From Acidobacteriota bacterium (GTDB lineage Bacteria > Acidobacteriota > Thermoanaerobaculia > Multivoradales > J023), in assembly GCA_029263395.1 (NCBI GenBank), contig JAJCXO010000214.1, positions 62,001 to 126,000 on the forward strand: 64,000 nucleotides of DNA, given 5' to 3'. The translations under genes were made by a program, and so were the position numbers. Under the pieces are notes generated by a model. That model did not search any database and was not told the origin of the DNA. It saw only the letters and a program-made list of their open reading frames with translations. Shown here one piece after another: positions 3,583-48,295 of the stretch (positions within the stretch are counted from its first letter, which is position 1; each line of letters opens with the position of its first letter).

Positions 3583-4593
3583 CTAGATTTCAACGCAGAT
3601 TTTCCCTACGTGGCGACCGCCTGACATGTAGAGCAGGGCCTCACGGGCTTCCTCGAAGGGGAAAACCCGATCGATCACCGGTCGGATCTCATGCTGGGCA
3701 AAACACCGATTCATCGCTTCGAAGCCGTCACGGGAACCCACCAAGATCCCTTGGATCCGAACGTTTTGCATCAAAATCGGCAGGATGTTGAGGTCGATCC
3801 TGGTGCCTGACAAGACTCCGATCAGACTGATGTGCCCACCGATGCGAATCGCCTGTAGGCTTTGTTGAAGCGTGCCAGCACCACCAACTTCAACGATGTG
3901 ATCCACACCGATACCCTCCGTGATCTCCTTGACGATCTTTCCCCACGCCGGATTCTCGACATAGTTGATCTCGTGCCAACTACCGAGCTTGCGAGCCGTC
4001 TCCAACTTCGAATCTCGGGACGAGGTTACGATGACTCGGGCGCCCAAGGCGCGGGCGATCTGTAAAGCAAAAAGTGACACACCGCCAGTGCCTTGCACCA
4101 AAACTGTGTCACCGGCGTGGACGTTTCCTTGGGTGACCAGAGCACTCCAAGCTGTCAGCGCGGCACAAGGCAACGTTGATGCCTCGACATCGGTAAGGTG
4201 CTCTGGAACCGCCACGACCCCGCTCTCGGGCAGCACCATGAACTCAGCCAACGTTCCGTCGATTGGGCCGCCAAGGGTACCGCCGAGCTTGGTCTTGTTC
4301 GGCTCTCCCCCACCCCAACTCTGACAGAAGAGTGTCGCAACACGATCTCCAGGCTGGAATCCGCGTACCTGCTCACCGGTCTCGACAACTTCTCCGACGC
4401 CATCCGAGCACGGAATCAGCGGTAACGGCTGCTTGGGATTGTAGTGACCGTTGACCATCAAGATATCGCGGTAGTTGAACGACATGGCCTTCATCTTGAG
4501 GAGGACCTCACCATGCCCCGGTTTGGGGCGTGGACGCTCGCCAACAACTAGTTGATCTAGACCAAATCCGTCGCGAATCTCGAAAACCTTCAT
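3583..4593 (-). CDS. Zinc-free MDR alcohol dehydrogenase / quinone oxidoreductase-like protein
   Basis: Medium-chain dehydrogenase/reductase of 336 residues. The start at ATG 4591-4593 (protein MKVFEIRD) is preferred because AAAGGAA lies about 8 bases upstream and the family begins here; the longer frame would add 35 unrelated residues. The GroES-like half contains SFNYRDILM where zinc enzymes carry the catalytic Cys, so the active-site zinc is probably absent, as in quinone oxidoreductases. The Rossmann half has VQGTGGVSLFALQIA, the NAD(P)-binding turn. It would reduce or oxidise an alcohol, enone or quinone using NAD(P)H. It converges with the ABC ATPase 24 bases away and is divergent from the glycosyltransferase. 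Confidence 0.88.
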   Translation of the reverse strand: MKVFEIRDGFGLDQLVVGERPRPKPGHGEVLLKMKAMSFNYRDILMVNGHYNPKQPLPLIPCSDGVGEVVETGEQVRGFQPGDRVATLFCQSWGGGEPNKTKLGGTLGGPIDGTLAEFMVLPESGVVAVPEHLTDVEASTLPCAALTAWSALVTQGNVHAGDTVLVQGTGGVSLFALQIARALGARVIVTSSRDSKLETARKLGSWHEINYVENPAWGKIVKEITEGIGVDHIVEVGGAGTLQQSLQAIRIGGHISLIGVLSGTRIDLNILPILMQNVRIQGILVGSRDGFEAMNRCFAQHEIRPVIDRVFPFEEAREALLYMSGGRHVGKICVEI

Positions 4594-4851
4594 GGTGTTC
4601 CTTTGTGGATGTGACGTAGAGTCGGCCTGAGGAAGCCGACGCCCTCGTCGGATATCGCCAACACGCATCGAAATGGCGCACACTCGTGTTGCCACCACAA
4701 ATACTACCGTGGATAGCGACGCGGGGATAATTTCAACCCGCTATTGACACGCTGCCATGCTCCCGCCACTCCTCCACTCCCAAGTCTCAGCAACAAACAG
4801 TGCCGCACCTCGCCCAAGGTACTGCCCAGATCGGGAGCAAAAATAGCACCC

Positions 4852-33828: not shown

Positions 33829-35019
33829 ATGGCGACTGGCACCCCATTCTTCCCGCGCACGTTCGAGCTCAACAAAAGTATGAGCTGGAAAGACTGGTCC
33901 GGCTTCTTCGCGGCAAACCACTATCAAGAGTTTCACCAGCCCGAGTATGCCGCCATCCGCAATGGCGCGGCGCTGATCGATGTCTCACCACTGTACAAGT
34001 ACACTTTGGAGGGCCCGGACGCAGCCGCGTTGGTGGACCGATTGGTCACCCGCAACGCACGTCGATTCAAGGTAGGTCAAGTTATCTACACCCCGTGGTG
34101 CGACGAGGATGGCAAAATCCTGCAAGAAGGCACGATCATGCGGTTGGCCGAGGACCGCTTCCAGATCAATGCGGCGGAGCCGGCCATCCGATGGCTGACG
34201 CTCAACGCCACCGGGCTACAGCTCAAGATCGAGGATCGCTCAGCCGAGATGGCCGCCCTCGCCGTCCAGGGTCCCCGTTCGCGCACCTTGCTCAACGAGA
34301 TCTCCAACGGCGGCGTCGAAGATCTTGGATTCTTCGGGGTCAAGCCGGTCGAGATCGGTGGTGTTTCGGTGCTCGTCTCTCGCACCGGATACACCGGTGA
34401 TCTAGGTTACGAACTCTGGATACCAGCCGCCGCAACGCTCGAGATCTGGGACCGTTTGATGCATGTCGGCGAAAGTCATGGCGCAACCCCTTGCGGACTG
34501 CTCGCGCTCGACATCGCCCGCATCGAAGCGGGTTTCATCCTAATTGATGTCGACTATGTCCCCGCCGATCAAGCTCTTATTCCATCGCAAAAATCGTCTC
34601 CCTACGAGCTCGGCCTGGGCTGGGCTGTCAAGCTCAAGAAGAAGGCTGCCTTCAACGGCCGCGAAGCGCTGGCACGGGAAAAGGCGTCGGGCAGTGGTTG
34701 GCAACTCGTTGGGCTCGAGATTCCCTGGGAGCCCTTGGAAGACCTGTACATGGCAGCTGGTCTCATGCCGGACCTGCCGACAACCGCCTGGCGTGACGCC
34801 ATCCCGGTCTACAGTGATGGCCTGCAGGTTGGCCGCGCTACCAGCGGCTGCTGGTCGACAACCCTCAAAAAGTACCTGGCACTAGCCTCGGTCAAAACTC
34901 CTTACGCAACCGTCGGCAACGAGCTGCAGATGGAGGTCACGGTCGACTACACTCGACGGCAGGCACCAGCGCGAGTCGTCGAACTGCCGTTCTTCCGCCC
35001 GATTCGCATGCGCGAATAA
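33829..35019 (+). CDS. GcvT/DmdA-like aminomethyltransferase-family protein
   Basis: A 396-residue protein of the tetrahydrofolate-binding GcvT fold. It has RNGAALIDVSPLYKYTLEGPDAAA at the N terminus, the domain-2 motif RTGYTGDLGYELW, then GLLALDIARIEAGF and the C-terminal barrel (ELGLGWAVKL, VGRATSGCWSTTLKK). True GcvT, dimethylglycine dehydrogenase tails and DmdA all share this fold, and they demethylate or move one-carbon units to tetrahydrofolate. No glycine cleavage partner (gcvH, gcvP) is nearby. GAGG is 8 bases before ATG 33829. It is divergent from the PYROXD2-like operon, so a shared demethylation pathway is possible but unproven. Confidence 0.88.
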   Translation: MATGTPFFPRTFELNKSMSWKDWSGFFAANHYQEFHQPEYAAIRNGAALIDVSPLYKYTLEGPDAAALVDRLVTRNARRFKVGQVIYTPWCDEDGKILQEGTIMRLAEDRFQINAAEPAIRWLTLNATGLQLKIEDRSAEMAALAVQGPRSRTLLNEISNGGVEDLGFFGVKPVEIGGVSVLVSRTGYTGDLGYELWIPAAATLEIWDRLMHVGESHGATPCGLLALDIARIEAGFILIDVDYVPADQALIPSQKSSPYELGLGWAVKLKKKAAFNGREALAREKASGSGWQLVGLEIPWEPLEDLYMAAGLMPDLPTTAWRDAIPVYSDGLQVGRATSGCWSTTLKKYLALASVKTPYATVGNELQMEVTVDYTRRQAPARVVELPFFRPIRMRE

Positions 35020-35125
35020 ACCCGACTCGCGGTCGCGACTAAACCCGACTCACAGGCGCGAGTAGAACCGACTCGCGGTCGCGACTAAACCCGACTCCCA
35101 GGCGCGAGTAATACCGACTTGAAAA
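35011..35125. repeat. 23-bp tandem repeat array, five units
   Basis: Units start at 35011, 35034, 35057, 35080 and 35103, each near CGCGACTAAACCCGACTCGCGGT. Units 1 and 3 end CGCGGT while 2 and 4 end CACAGG or CCCAGG, so the array has a 46-bp higher-order period. The GcvT-like stop codon lies in unit 1 (35017-35019) and the array ends 30 bases before the histidine kinase start. Confidence 0.95.
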
Positions 35126-39363: not shown

Positions 39364-39888
39364 TTGCGCCGGCCAATTTCTTGCTACGGCAAGGCCATCG
39401 ATCTGCTCAGCCGTCGCTCTCATTTTGAGCGCGAGCTCGAACGCAAGCTGAGTCAACGCAAATACGACGCGGAAGAGATCGCCACGACGATCGAACGCCT
39501 GCGGTCCGAGAATCTAGTGGACGACGCCAGAACAGCCCGTGAGCTGGTCCGCGGCAAGTTGGCCCGGGCGCCGGTGGGCGGCATGAAACTACGCAGCGAC
39601 CTCATACGACGCGGCGTGGCCCGGGAAATCATCGACGACACCCTCGCGGAGTTGGTGCCCGAGGATGACCGCGAGCCAACCCGTCAAGCTGCCGCACGCT
39701 GGCGACGACGCAAACCGCGCACTCAATCCGGGCCATTGGAAGATCGCGATCGCGCCGCCCTAGCGCGCCACCTCGCCGGCCGCGGATTCACCAAGCGTGC
39801 TATCTTCTCCGTCCTTCGCGAGATCCAAGATCAAGACTCCGACAACGACTTTTGGAATGACGACACCTTCGACGAAGGGTTGTCTTGA
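39364..39888 (+). CDS. recX: RecX-like regulator of RecA
   Basis: A 174-residue, helical, charged protein with the RecX three-helix repeats: RRSHFERELERKLSQR, TTIERLRSENLVDDARTAREL, and LRSDLIRRGVAREIIDDTL. RecX binds RecA filaments and limits recombination. No recA gene is in the window. The start is TTG 39364, 4 bases after the pilT stop; an ATG at 39359 is in another frame, so the start is uncertain. It ends 7 bases before alaS, the usual recX-alaS order. Confidence 0.85.
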   Translation: MRRPISCYGKAIDLLSRRSHFERELERKLSQRKYDAEEIATTIERLRSENLVDDARTARELVRGKLARAPVGGMKLRSDLIRRGVAREIIDDTLAELVPEDDREPTRQAAARWRRRKPRTQSGPLEDRDRAALARHLAGRGFTKRAIFSVLREIQDQDSDNDFWNDDTFDEGLS

Positions 39889-39895
39889 GAACCTC

Positions 39896-42553
39896 ATGAA
39901 CAGCCAGGATATCCGCCAGAGCTTCATCGACTTCTTCCGCGACCGGGGCCACACCCCCATGCCAAGCGCACCGCTGGTACCCCACGGCGACGACACCCTG
40001 CTTTTCACCAACGCCGGCATGGTGCCGTTCAAAAACACCTTTCTCGGCATCGAGGAAGCCAAACATCCTCGGGCGGTGACGTCGCAGAAGTGCCTCCGGG
40101 TTTCGGGCAAACACAACGATCTCACCAACGTTGGCCCCAGCCCACGCCACCACACCTTCTTCGAGATGCTCGGCAACTTCTCCTTCGGCGACTACTTCAA
40201 AGAAGACGCGATCCGCTTCGCCTGGCAGTTGGTGACCGAAGTCTGGGAACTGCCGACCGAACATCTTTTTGCGTCGGTTTTTGAAGAGGACGACGAAGCC
40301 GAAGCCCTGTGGCGCAAGATTTCGACCCTACCCGCCGATCGTATCCTGCGCTGTGGCGCTGCCGACAACTTCTGGAGCATGGGCAAAACCGGCCCCTGTG
40401 GACCGTGCAGCGAGATTTTTGTCGATCTCGATCCGGACCAGCCCAAAGTATCCTGGGAAGCGGGCAATGACAGCGGGCGTTACCTGGAGATCTGGAATCT
40501 GGTCTTCATGCAATTCAATCGCGACGAAGACGGTCAAATGACCCCGCTGCCGAATCCCTCGATCGATACCGGCGCCGGTCTCGAACGGGTCACCTCGGTG
40601 CTGCAGGGCGTGAAGTCGAATTACGACACCGACCTCTTCCGCGACATCTTGCGCACGGCCGCCGAAGTGGCTGGCACCGAGTACGGCCGTGACGCCAGCG
40701 CCGACACCTCGCTGCGAGTCATCGCCGACCACTTGCGCGCCACCGCATTCCTGCTGGCGGATGGCGTCATTCCTGGACCTACCGACCGCGGCTACGTGCT
40801 GCGTCGCCTGTTGCGTCGAGCATTGCGCCACGGTATGCGGATCGGCCTCGAAGAGCCATTCCTCCATCGCCTGGTCCCTGTGCTGGAACAGACCATGGGG
40901 TCCCATTTCAGCGAACTCGGGAAAACCCGCAAGGCGACCGAGGCAACGGTGTTGGAAGAAGAGGAGAAATACCTCCAGACGCGGGCCACCGGTGCCCGCC
41001 GAGTGCAGGAAGCGATCGATCGCACCCGCGCCGCCGGCACCCAAAAGCTCTCGGGGGAGGAAATCTTCCAGCTTTACGACACCTACGGCCAAGAACTCGA
41101 TGCCGTGCGCGAGATCGCCGAAGAAGAACAACTCGAGCTCGACGAGGTCGGATTCGAGGCCCTGCTCGAAGCGCGGCGCAAACGCTCGCGGACGGCCACT
41201 ACCGCATTGCAAGAACGCCTCGCGAGCCTGCGGGAAGCCTTGGCCGGAAGCGGTGACGAGGGTGACGTCGGGACGCCGTTCGAAGGTTACGAGTTGTTGG
41301 CTGATGCCAAGGCTGGCGTCCTCCGCCTCGCCGCGGTTGCAGAGGATGCCGCCACCGCCGTCGAGACCTTGGCTGCTGGTCAGACCGGAGTAGTTGTGCT
41401 CGATCACACACCGTTTTACGCTGAATCCGGTGGCCAGGTCGGGGACCGAGGGTCCATCGAGTGGGACGGCGGCAGCGCCGTCGTCAACGATACGCAGAAA
41501 GACAACGCCGGGACCATCTTCCACTTCGTCGTGGTCCAAGAGGGGGAGCTCACCGCCGGTCAAGCTGTGACGCCGCGTGTTGATCTCGAACGCCGCCGTG
41601 CGACCGAACGCAACCACACCGCCACCCACTTGTTACATGCCGCACTCCATCAAACGGTCGGCGACGGTGCTCGCCAGGCCGGCTCGTTGGTGGCCCCGGA
41701 TCGCCTGCGGTTCGACTTCACCCATGGCAAATCGCTGACCGCTGACGAGTTGCGACAGATCGAAGATCTGGCCAACCAGTGGATCCGTAACGCGGTCGCC
41801 GTCGACATCCACTCCCAGAGTTATGACGACGCGGTGGCGGCCGGTGCGATGGCATTGTTTGGCGAAAAATACGGCGACCAAGTCCGCACGGTGAAGATTC
41901 CCGGCTTCAGCCTCGAGCTTTGTGGCGGCTGTCACGTCCGCAACAGCGGTGAAATTGGCCTACTCCTGATCACCTCGGAGCGCGGTATTGCCTCGGGCGT
42001 GCGACGAATCGAAGCGATCACTGGCGAGGGTGCCCTCGACCTGGTGCGTGAGCGGCAGCGGCTACTCGCCGATGTCGAGCACCACTTGTCGGTGCCCGCC
42101 GAACGTGCCGGTGAAGAGGTCAGCGCCCTGCGCGGCAAGGTCAAACAACTCGAACGTGAGCTGGCTCAGTTGAGGGTCAAGCTGGTTTCTGGCGAAACCG
42201 CCGCTCAAGGAGAGCTCGAGGTCGACGGCATCCGCGTGGTGGCTCGCGAAGTACCCCAGGCACCCACCAACGAGCTGCGCAACCTGGCTGACACCCTGCG
42301 CGACAAGCTCGGTTCCGGCGTTGTTGTACTCGCCACCCGCACCGAGGACAAAGTCACCCTCATCGCCACCGTTTCCAAGGACCTCAACCGCAAGTTGAGT
42401 GCCGGTAACCTGGTCAAGAGCCTGGCCGGCATTGTCGGCGGCCGCGGCGGTGGTCGCCCCGATTTTGCCCAGGCTGGTGGTCGTGAGCCCGACAGGCTCC
42501 CCGAGCTGTTGAAAGCGGTACCCAACGCGGTGAGTGAACAGCTCGCCGGTTGA
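39896..42553 (+). CDS. alaS: Alanyl-tRNA synthetase
   Basis: An 885-residue AlaRS. The class II catalytic core starts MNSQDIRQSFIDFFRDRGHTP with FTNAGMVPFKNTFLG and GRYLEIWNLVFMQF. The editing domain has RNHTATHLLHAAL and the zinc ligands CGGCH. The C-terminal C-Ala domain ends at residue 885. The start at 39896 is set by family alignment; the longer frame overlaps recX by 99 bases. Length is close to E. coli AlaRS (876). It charges tRNA-Ala with alanine and clears mischarged Ser and Gly. Directly after its stop begins a 42-bp repeat array. Confidence 0.96.
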   Translation: MNSQDIRQSFIDFFRDRGHTPMPSAPLVPHGDDTLLFTNAGMVPFKNTFLGIEEAKHPRAVTSQKCLRVSGKHNDLTNVGPSPRHHTFFEMLGNFSFGDYFKEDAIRFAWQLVTEVWELPTEHLFASVFEEDDEAEALWRKISTLPADRILRCGAADNFWSMGKTGPCGPCSEIFVDLDPDQPKVSWEAGNDSGRYLEIWNLVFMQFNRDEDGQMTPLPNPSIDTGAGLERVTSVLQGVKSNYDTDLFRDILRTAAEVAGTEYGRDASADTSLRVIADHLRATAFLLADGVIPGPTDRGYVLRRLLRRALRHGMRIGLEEPFLHRLVPVLEQTMGSHFSELGKTRKATEATVLEEEEKYLQTRATGARRVQEAIDRTRAAGTQKLSGEEIFQLYDTYGQELDAVREIAEEEQLELDEVGFEALLEARRKRSRTATTALQERLASLREALAGSGDEGDVGTPFEGYELLADAKAGVLRLAAVAEDAATAVETLAAGQTGVVVLDHTPFYAESGGQVGDRGSIEWDGGSAVVNDTQKDNAGTIFHFVVVQEGELTAGQAVTPRVDLERRRATERNHTATHLLHAALHQTVGDGARQAGSLVAPDRLRFDFTHGKSLTADELRQIEDLANQWIRNAVAVDIHSQSYDDAVAAGAMALFGEKYGDQVRTVKIPGFSLELCGGCHVRNSGEIGLLLITSERGIASGVRRIEAITGEGALDLVRERQRLLADVEHHLSVPAERAGEEVSALRGKVKQLERELAQLRVKLVSGETAAQGELEVDGIRVVAREVPQAPTNELRNLADTLRDKLGSGVVVLATRTEDKVTLIATVSKDLNRKLSAGNLVKSLAGIVGGRGGGRPDFAQAGGREPDRLPELLKAVPNAVSEQLAG

Positions 42554-42643
42554 TTGGGACGTCCAACTCGACGCTGCCAGCCTTCAGCGTCGGGGCTTTC
42601 GCTGTGGGTGCCCACTGCCGAACAAAAACTACCTGGCCGGCCG

Positions 42644-43138
42644 CGGCAAGCCAGTTGCACCGTCAAAACGGCCTACTTGCTCCCACGGCGAACCTGTTTC
42701 ACCGTCGAAGCGGCTTACTTGCTCCCACGGCAAGCCTCTCACGCTATCGAAACAGCTCACTTTCTCTCACGGCAAGCCTCTCACGTTATCGAAACAGCTC
42801 ACTTTCTCTCACGGCAAGCCTCTCACGCTGTCGAAACAGCTCACTTTCTCTCACGGCAAGCCTCTCACGCTGTCGAAACGGCTTACTTTCTTCCACGGCG
42901 AACCACTTTCACCGTCAAAACGGCTTACTTTCTCTCACGGCGAACCATTTTCACCGTCGAAACAGCTTACTTTCTCCCACGGCGAACCACTTTCACCGTC
43001 AAAACGGTTCACTTTCTCCCACGGCAAGCCATTTTCACCGTCAAAACGGCTTACTTTCTCTCACGGCAAGCCATTTTTTTTAGGTAGGAAAAACGGCTTA
43101 CGTCCTCCCGCAGCAAGCCTTCACGCTGTCGAAACAGA
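42644..43138. repeat. 42-bp tandem repeat array, about 11 units, downstream of alaS
   Basis: Units begin CGGCAAGCC or CGGCGAACC at 42644, 42686, 42728 and every 42 bases to 43064, then one 47-base unit broken by a T8 run and GGTAGGAAA, then a last partial unit from 43111. Units share a core ending ACTTTCTCTCA. Differences cluster: units 3-6 are TCTCACGC-type, units 7-10 are TTTCACCGTC-type. Because 42 is 14 codons, all three plus-strand frames stay open (42534-43211 and two others), but none has a believable start or protein features. The array fills the gap between alaS and the convergent regulator gene, so its role could be a spacer, a mRNA 3-prime structure or a protein-binding array. Confidence 0.95.
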
Positions 43139-44587
43139 CTATTTGAGTTGCTGGCGCAGCGCATCTGCCCGACGCTGCCAACGACCGGCCTCATCCCACT
43201 CGCCGAGCTGAAACAACAACAAGGCAATGTTGTGAATCGCCTCGTCGTAGTCGGGACGCAGCTCGAGGGCGCGGCGATACGACGAGCGTGCCTGGAGCGA
43301 ACGCCCCTGGGCCGCGTAGGCCAGCCCTAGAGCTTTATGTGCTTCGGGGAGCTCCGGTTCCAGTGCCAAGGCTTGTTGGGCAGCAGCCAACGCCAAGTCG
43401 GCCGACTCCGGGCCGAACCCATAGTTGGCCACCCGCAACGCGTAGGCACTCGCCAGTCCGGCACCAGCCAGAGCAAAGTCCGGATCCACTGCCAAGGCCG
43501 CGGTGTAAAGCTTGATCGCGGACTCGTTGGCGTCCCGTTCATACCGCAGATAAGCCTCGCGACCACGTAGATATTGGTCATGCGCGGTCACCTCCTGAGT
43601 CGGCTGTCGTTCCAGAGCGCGACGCTCCTGGGGACTGAGCTCGGCACACAGAGCTCGCACGATGCGGTCGGCGACATCGCGTTGGATCTCAAAAATGTCT
43701 TCGAGGTTGCGATCGTAGTCGTGACTCCACAGATGGTGATCGGTGGCGACGTCGATCAACTGGGCGGTGATACGGACGGTATCTTTCTCCCGTCGCACAC
43801 TGCCCTCCACAATCGACGCAACGCGTAGCTCGCGTCCGATCTCTGGCAGGCTCTTGGTGCTGTTTCGATAGGTCATCGAGGATGTCCGTGAGACGACCTT
43901 CAGCTCGCGTACCTTCGACAAGGCAGTGATGATGTCCTCGGTCATGCCGTCCGAGAAGTAGTCCGACTCCGGGTCCCCACTGAAGTTGCTGAACGGCAGC
44001 ACCGCAATCGAATCGGGATGAGGCTTTGCCCACAGCATGTCCAGTGTTGTCCCAAACGCTACGATCAACGCCACAACCCCGGTGACGATCGCCGCGGTCT
44101 GCCAACCTGTGGGTCGCCAGCCAGCTGGCCACCAACGCTGCCTCGGGAGATCTGCCGCGAGTGCCCTGGAAGACTCTGGCTGCGGCTCCGGCTCGATGGG
44201 CACCGGTTCGACAGGCACCACCTCGGCGATCAACCGATACCCTCGCTTGGGTAACGTTTCGATCAGCCGCGGGGAACGTGCGTCATCCCCCAACAACCGT
44301 CGCAGCTCCGAGATGCCCCGGGCCAACACAACTTCCTTGACGTAGGTCCCGCGCCAGACCTCGTCCAGGATCTGGTCCTTGGGCACCACCTCCCCGGCAC
44401 GGTCGACGAGGAAAACGAGGACCGCCATGACCTTCGGCTCGAGCCGCACCGTCCGGGACTCGCAGGTCGCTGTGCCCGCTGTCGGCTCGATCGACCATTC
44501 GGCGAGTACAAATGGACGCTGACCCAAGCCAGCCGCTGCGGCCGGCTCCAATGCGGCGGAAACGCTCTCTTGGGCACCTTCAAACAT
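43139..44587 (-). CDS. CadC/ToxR-type winged-helix regulator with membrane anchor and TPRs
   Basis: A 482-residue protein. Residues about 25-120 are an OmpR-type winged helix (FVLAEWSIEPTAGTATC, then GEVVPKDQILDEVW and IETLPKRGYRLIAEV). A Pro/Glu-rich linker leads to one membrane segment (about 162-180, TAAIVTGVVALIVAFGTTL). The outer part begins with a FlgO/TolB-like domain (IAVLPFSNFSGDPESDYFSDGMTEDI) and ends with TPRs (AHDQYLRGREAYLRYERDA to LGLAYAAQGRSLQARSSYRRAL). It is likely a membrane-bound sensor that acts directly on DNA. It is divergent from the POT transporter gene across 147 bases, which is a possible target. No Shine-Dalgarno is seen before ATG 44585-44587. Confidence 0.92.
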   Translation of the reverse strand: MFEGAQESVSAALEPAAAAGLGQRPFVLAEWSIEPTAGTATCESRTVRLEPKVMAVLVFLVDRAGEVVPKDQILDEVWRGTYVKEVVLARGISELRRLLGDDARSPRLIETLPKRGYRLIAEVVPVEPVPIEPEPQPESSRALAADLPRQRWWPAGWRPTGWQTAAIVTGVVALIVAFGTTLDMLWAKPHPDSIAVLPFSNFSGDPESDYFSDGMTEDIITALSKVRELKVVSRTSSMTYRNSTKSLPEIGRELRVASIVEGSVRREKDTVRITAQLIDVATDHHLWSHDYDRNLEDIFEIQRDVADRIVRALCAELSPQERRALERQPTQEVTAHDQYLRGREAYLRYERDANESAIKLYTAALAVDPDFALAGAGLASAYALRVANYGFGPESADLALAAAQQALALEPELPEAHKALGLAYAAQGRSLQARSSYRRALELRPDYDEAIHNIALLLFQLGEWDEAGRWQRRADALRQQLK

Positions 44588-47461: not shown

Positions 47462-48295
47462 TTGAGGAGCGCCAACCCAGGCGCTGCAGCGGGAATGCCT
47501 GGCGAGCTGCAGGCCGTCTCAGCTGTTGATGCGTCGTCTGTCGACGAGTCGTCTGCCGGTGGGTCGCCTGCCGGTGAGTCGCCAGACGTTCTGATTCCTC
47601 CCGAAGAGCCGCTGCCTGCGGTCGTTGGCGACCAGCCAATACCACCAGAGACCTCGGACTCCTCGACGATCTTCAGTCGATTGTCACCAACCCTTCTGGT
47701 CTTCCAGGCGCTAACCGGCATCCTACTGATGTTCACCTACCGCCCTACCGCGGAGACAGCCTATTTAGATCTCGTCGAGCTCCGCGAAGTCAGCCGCCTG
47801 GGGTTTGTGCGGGGTTTACATTTTTGGGGCTCGCACGCCGTCGTCATCGTCAGTTGGCTGGCTGTCCTACAGGTGGGTTTGCTCGGCATTCGCCGGCACC
47901 GCAACCAGTGGACAGTCGTTCTCATCGTGATGCTTGTAACGTTGGCGCTTGCTGTGACCGGGCACATCCTGCCTTGGGACGCCAATACCTTCGGCTGGAT
48001 GCCTGATTTGTTGAAGCCCACCACGATGGCTGACGGCTCACAGCCGCTCGCCGAAAGTTCAGGCCCGGTCGACCTGATCACGGTGTATGCCTTGCACTGC
48101 CTCGTGCTGCCACTTGTCGTCACCGCCGTCGTCCTCGGGTACCGTCGGCGAACACAGTCGGCGCCAACACAGTCATCGCCAACACAGTCATCGCCAACAC
48201 AGTCATCGCCAACACAGTCGGCGCCAACACAGTCGGCGCCAACACAGTCGGCGCCAACACAGTCGGCGCCAACACAGTCGGCGCCAACACAGTAA
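47462..48295 (+). CDS. Cytochrome b N-terminal (PetB-like) subunit with lost bH-haem ligands
   Basis: A 277-residue protein. The first 70 residues are soluble, acidic and Ser/Pro-rich. Helix A reads TLLVFQALTGILLMF. Helix B has the bL ligand H120 in RGLHFWGSH, and helix C has GHILPWDANTFGWMPDLL, the PetB hallmark. Helix D has the second bL ligand H212 (YALHCLVLP). The residues aligned with the two bH ligands are Ala134 and Tyr227 instead of His. The C terminus is a tail of nine SAPTQ/SSPTQ pentapeptides. TTG 47462 is preferred over ATG 47432 because AAGGAGG is 7 bases upstream. It carries electrons from quinol in a bc-like complex. The PetD-like part is the next gene. Confidence 0.85.
   Translation: MRSANPGAAAGMPGELQAVSAVDASSVDESSAGGSPAGESPDVLIPPEEPLPAVVGDQPIPPETSDSSTIFSRLSPTLLVFQALTGILLMFTYRPTAETAYLDLVELREVSRLGFVRGLHFWGSHAVVIVSWLAVLQVGLLGIRRHRNQWTVVLIVMLVTLALAVTGHILPWDANTFGWMPDLLKPTTMADGSQPLAESSGPVDLITVYALHCLVLPLVVTAVVLGYRRRTQSAPTQSSPTQSSPTQSSPTQSAPTQSAPTQSAPTQSAPTQSAPTQ
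47531..47590. repeat. Degenerate 15-bp tandem repeat near the cytochrome b start
   Basis: Four in-frame units of about GAGTCGTCTGCCGGT at 47531, 47546, 47561 and 47576. They encode a Ser/Gly/Asp/Glu-rich linker (SSVDE, SSAGG, SPAGE). Confidence 0.7.
48151..48295. repeat. 15-bp tandem repeat, nine units plus a part, coding SAPTQ tail
   Basis: Nine perfect or near-perfect units of AACACAGTCGGCGCC, with AACACAGTCATCGCC at units 2-4, then AACACAG and the TAA stop. The unit encodes SAPTQ or SSPTQ at the C terminus of the cytochrome b gene. Near-identity points to recent slippage or gene conversion. Confidence 0.97.

Follow-up and report, generated by a model that had tools for sequence, protein, structure and literature searches.

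The array described here lies between two convergent genes, alaS and the gene of a winged-helix regulator, in a stretch of 64,000 nucleotides of an Acidobacteriota genome (the window, G000:C214:62001-126000), which belongs to a draft assembly of 10.68 Mb in 291 contigs. Orthologues of alaS are present in G001, a genome of the same genus, and in G002, G003 and G005, and the alignment of the regulator gene to G001 stops at its stop codon. A sequence-only reading of this DNA had reported direct repeats downstream of alaS, which TRF and stacking of the units both bear out. TRF gives a period of 42 with 10.2 copies from 42644 to 43072 (score 438), as well as a 126-bp superperiod (score 521), and stacking gives 10 full units at a 42-bp step, a count that holds for the draft assembly. 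The unit, hereafter family A, reads most easily on the minus strand, which was taken as its strand: GGGAGAAAGTAAGCCGTTTTGACGGTGAAAATGGCTTGCCGT. The earlier statement that the array exactly fills the intergenic gap does not hold, since 90 repeat-free bp follow the end of alaS at 42553 and a stop codon borders the array only on the other side, at 43139 (Table 1).

Table 1. Features of the intergenic gap downstream of alaS, and the other family-A arrays of the genome
Feature	Position	Strand	Size	Basis
alaS, left neighbour (start codon approximate)	39797..42553	+		ORF; name from the sequence-only reading and sequence
Repeat-free segment, alaS stop codon to first unit	42554..42643	.	90 bp	sequence
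Intact family-A units	42644..43063	-	ten units	TRF, stacking, model R1 matches
Variant, hairpin-like unit with AAGCCATTTTTTTTAGGTAGGAAAAACGGCTTAC	43064-43105	-		sequence
End element GTAAGCCGTTTTTC-CTACCT-AAAAAAAATGGCTTGC, within the variant unit 43064..43105	GTAAGCCGTTTTTC at 43088-43101	minus		sequence
Decayed partial unit, adjoining the stop codon of the convergent gene	43106..43138	-		sequence comparison
Winged-helix (Trans_reg_C) and TPR regulator, convergent right neighbour	43139..44587	-		Pfam
Family-A array	C272		about 11 units	
Family-A array	C83		about 8 units	
Family-A array	C132		about 6 units	
Family-A array	C14		about 4 units	
Family-A array	C23		about 4 units	
Family-A array	C177		1-2 units	

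Units 3 to 6 of the window array (TCTCACGC) show 1-6 mutual differences and 9-14 differences from the other units, and unit 6, from its sequence, looks like the junction between the two classes. Adjacent units have a mean of 5.8 differences, against 8.3 in random order (P 0.016). Unit differences and neighbour test thus agree with the earlier proposal of two unit classes in ordered blocks, produced by local copying. The array was also rightly set apart from CRISPR, the units being joined head to tail with no unique spacers, and the inverted repeats noticed in it exist. Searching Rfam 15 gave no match in the window above the gathering score. The window array is real and non-coding. Two other repeats are found in the window: a tandem array with a period of 23/46 bp at 34998-35119 (CCCGACTCGCAGGCGCGACTAAA), and a 15-bp repeat (AACACAGTCGGCGCC; 9.5 copies) at 48151-48293, which lies at the end of a membrane-protein-like frame with PTQSA repeats and probably codes for protein.

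The unit is also present at six other loci of the same genome, making seven in total. A model of family A built from sequence alone (R1) detected no further convincing site in this genome. In 58 relatives, of which one belongs to the same genus, it gave no convincing match either. Weak R1 matches in G002, G006 and G037 were rejected as members because they are single and not tandem; the unit pattern gave 0 matches in viral contigs, and in genome contigs it gave two single chance matches and no array. The sequence-only reading had called for a search of related genomes and had considered that the units might be unique to this strain. Indeed, the unit is found in this genome only; but it occupies seven loci there, and the class of 42-bp arrays is common to the genus, being present in G001.

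Family-A units are closer to one another within most loci than between loci. Solitary units are almost absent, so that a moving piece is not seen. The end element (GTNAGCNGTTTTTC, searched as a 14-mer pattern) matches exactly at four places in 10.7 Mb, each of them at a family-A array; it occurs at several of these arrays, not all, and usually at one end only, and in the window a further decayed unit lies beyond it. It was rejected as a transposon end, having no exact copy outside the arrays and no more near matches than a reversed-pattern control. No convincing direct repeat of the kind left by target-site duplication was found at the ends of the seven arrays, these ends being uncertain, and no clean empty site was obtained in G001 for the family-A loci. 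At four of the five testable loci (the window array, C14, C132 and C177), synteny with G001 is one-sided, or the flanks lie apart or on different contigs. Family-A arrays may mark points of rearrangement, a reading which the ends of draft contigs confound. At one locus (L010), a 41-bp family-B-like array (2261-2398) is located ~1.3 kb from the family-A array.

The main point goes beyond the sequence-only reading: it is the 42-bp step common to many unrelated families. In 1.264 Mb of this genome, counting arrays of at least 80 bp, the fundamental period is 42 in 22 arrays and 43 in one. Most of the other arrays of the sample have periods of 15 or 18; periods of 51 and 53 occur once each, and one of 46 bp is a form of a 23-bp array. 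Few steps other than 42-43 are present between 31 and 60 bp. A lag scan of the same sample gave 21 loci at lag 42, one at 41 and one at 43; in other genomes, it has a constant background of 1-2, attributed to runs of N. Contigs C177, C23 and C132 and the window entered the sample because family A is present there. The remaining 800 kb hold 14 arrays of the class, from which roughly 190 are estimated genome-wide by extrapolation. One other array, of 17 bp (CGGCAGACAGTGATTGC; L014, 5925-6080), has superperiods of 34 and 51 bp.

All-against-all comparison of 35 arrays produced 16 groups, i.e. about 15 families, where one group join rests only on shared flanks and a few of the 16 groups are further related. 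A common ancestry of all the families was rejected, pairs from different groups being near random (mean z 0.41). With genes called by a simple codon model, 20 of the 23 arrays are clear of predicted genes, in a sample of which 89% is predicted to be coding. Steps of 41, 42 and 43 bp all occur, and some arrays mix them, families B and D combining 41- and 42-bp units; the step is therefore not codon-locked. It is close to certain that these arrays form a class, intergenic, non-coding and head to tail, with a unit of 41-43 bp and about 15 unrelated families, and that the window array is a member.

The same-genus genome G001 contains arrays of 42-bp step whose units are unrelated to family A. One lies downstream of its alaS, and another about 1.1 kb upstream of the orthologue of the gene beside the C177 array. 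In one case, the gap between the same two genes carries an array in each genome (L011, 3923-4301, in G000:C83; L101, 825-1105, in G001:C96), with the same 42-bp step and unrelated sequence. A search with the family-B model found at least 20 loci in the first genome and about 13 in G001; in five members of the same taxonomic family that belong to other genera, it found no locus. These five genomes had one 42-bp array in the 663 kb sampled (P 0.0008 for the comparison). Both genomes of the genus that were sampled thus have the class, which is rare elsewhere in the taxonomic family. A single contig of G001, of 4608 bases (L183, G001:C14), holds four arrays whose steps are 41-43 bp, at 109-441, 2033-2123, 4320-4409 and 4484-4605.

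The sequence-only reading had proposed folding of the repeats as a check. This holds for the minus strand of the window array, whose folding is far better than that of shuffled sequences (z -6.2), but hardly for the plus strand, where the effect is weak (z -2.0). The minus-strand family-A unit also stands out from a tandem-preserving control (z -3.65, 0/200). A hairpin in each family-A unit was nevertheless rejected, no consensus pair being predicted over 38 units from six loci and the covariation being that of shuffles. The family-B unit is mostly one dyad, whose covariation score was matched by 2 of 500 shuffles and lies above every slid version. Taken together, 29 arrays show raised circular dyad symmetry (Stouffer z 6.8, the families not being independent); a significant dyad is found in 10 of 23 unit sequences, and several families are without one.

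These observations suggest that something fixes the length of the unit and not its sequence. Small bacterial intergenic repeats are usually described family by family, each with its own length. The unit of the LTRR of heterocystous cyanobacteria is about 37 bp. LTRR resemble the arrays described here in being tandem, intergenic and dispersed over the genome, but they are one sequence family, where here there are many (PMC2408588). The BOX elements of Streptococcus pneumoniae (boxA, tandem boxB, boxC) are likewise short intergenic composites with a variable tandem core and hairpin potential, found at many sites in one lineage (PMC3049150). BOX is, however, one family with defined flanking modules, two in number, whereas here a single step is common to about 15 unrelated families, and an end element is found in family A only, not at all of its arrays. 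The BrickBuilt MITE of Porphyromonas gingivalis is a species-limited minisatellite, in every case intergenic and dispersed in 19 copies, with leader and tail parts (PMC4596501); it differs in its 23-nt unit, its single family and its small inverted ends, the present arrays having units of 41-43 nt, many families and no proven MITE ends. REP/BIME sequences associated with RAYT resemble the present arrays in being extragenic palindromes, with several families per genome and Y1 transposases in the genome (PMC3733652; PMC2817692). REPs occur as singles, dimers or in alternating orientation, in contrast to direct head-to-tail arrays at a fixed step, and neither a GTAG nor a CGTC tag was evident by eye at the dyads inspected here. 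The arrays lack what defines a CRISPR or a MITE (for the latter, terminal inverted repeats in common with a host transposon, and a convincing target-site duplication) and were filed under no known family. We could not match one step length across many unrelated families to a known case in the open-access literature, where no report of such a common step was found, which proves little. The existence of about 15 unrelated families at a 42-bp step, together with different families in one orthologous gap, means that unit length is separable from unit sequence. It opens to testing the question of what sets unit size in bacterial tandem repeats, and defines a length-locked class of repeats to be sought in other large genomes.

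The explanation we prefer, and on which our judgement is evenly balanced, is that of a genus-specific class of non-autonomous intergenic arrays, similar to BOX, BrickBuilt or REP, whose 42-bp length is set by a common trans-acting machinery. New intergenic sites would be seeded by short pieces of several units, and the resulting arrays would later grow and become uniform through slippage or unequal exchange. The machinery that sets their common length would handle a dyad-bearing DNA strand. Any effect on neighbouring genes, by hairpins in transcripts, would be a by-product. Dispersal within the genome is likely, given the seven family-A loci and the 20 or more of family B. The period peak at 42, the unrelated families, the intergenic siting, the local homogenisation, the dyads and the presence of arrays near Y1 transposase genes (see below) speak for this explanation. 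Against it stand the lack of target-site duplications and of a clean empty site, an end element without a transposon match, family-A pairs without covariation, several families without a significant dyad and a link to Y1 genes that was chosen post hoc.

Neutral minisatellites offer an alternative that we find rather unlikely. Slippage alone, promoted by hairpins on one strand, would build the arrays, with no mobile machinery; replication or repair in this genus would favour a 42-bp step, and related loci would arise through occasional recombination. The local homogenisation of the units, their hairpin potential, the lack of target-site duplications or transposon ends and the unrelated families at one orthologous gap would all be expected. 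Slippage normally yields a spread of unit lengths, however, and not the observed peak at 42; moreover, dispersal is needed to account for the seven loci of family A and the 20 or more of family B. It is unlikely that the genus possesses a dedicated length-measuring process which turns nearly any starting sequence into head-to-tail arrays of ~42 bp; the heritable property would then be the length of the unit, and not its sequence. We think it improbable that the arrays bind a protein or organise the nucleoid, 42 bp representing four turns of B-DNA that present the same face in each unit, and the step being kept by selection. The intergenic location and steps of 41-43 bp (42 = 4 x 10.5) would suit such a role, but the arrays show neither 10-11 bp A-tract phasing nor a 21-bp (half-unit) sub-period, equally phased steps of 31-32 or 52-53 bp are nearly absent, and no motif common to the families was found. 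A role in transcripts, as hairpin arrays by which mRNA is stabilised or terminated, would agree with the folding of the minus strand and the covarying family-B dyad. This reading is very improbable, and the termination role after alaS raised by the sequence-only reading finds no support: the neighbours of intergenic arrays are convergent in 7 cases, divergent in 6 and in tandem in 7, the terminator scan found 1 where 1.1 are expected by chance, and family-A pairs do not covary. Finally, repeats coding for 14-amino-acid units are scarcely conceivable and, for family A, effectively refuted: 42 bp do make 14 codons, three frames are open on the plus strand of the window array and the G001 array downstream of alaS lies within an open frame, but openness in all three frames is an effect of composition, the units of the C272 array are 41 bp long and each of its six frames contains stops, and families B and D combine units of 41 and 42 bp.

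Within the explanation that invokes a common trans-acting machinery, the favoured candidate would be a Y1 (HUH) transposase; its single-strand intermediates would be of fixed size and be copied into head-to-tail arrays. According to a model proposed for REP, arrays may arise from circular intermediates of Y1-type enzymes (PMC3733652), and by analogy an intermediate of fixed size would give a fixed step. This part is a guess, possible but doubtful. The genome has 18 matches to Y1 transposases, and the 50 kb around them contain five 41-42 bp arrays (within 1.5 kb) against 0.9 expected (P 0.002, in a test chosen post hoc). Where measured, the distances from array to Y1 gene are mostly about 1 kb or more, and the arrays do not flank the genes on both sides. 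Since Y1 genes also come with repeats of other kinds, the link may simply reflect intergenic space that tolerates repeats. At L257 (1291-1439) and L259 (969-1102), Y1 genes are accompanied by other palindromic repeats, e.g. CAGCCCAGGGTAAGCGCAGCGCAACCCTGGG, unlike the 42-bp families. Near Y1 genes, arrays with steps of 82, 42 and 41 bp, at L260 (1025-1305), L263 (109-251) and L266 (2335-2695), have the word CTCATCAACG in common and are possibly one further family.
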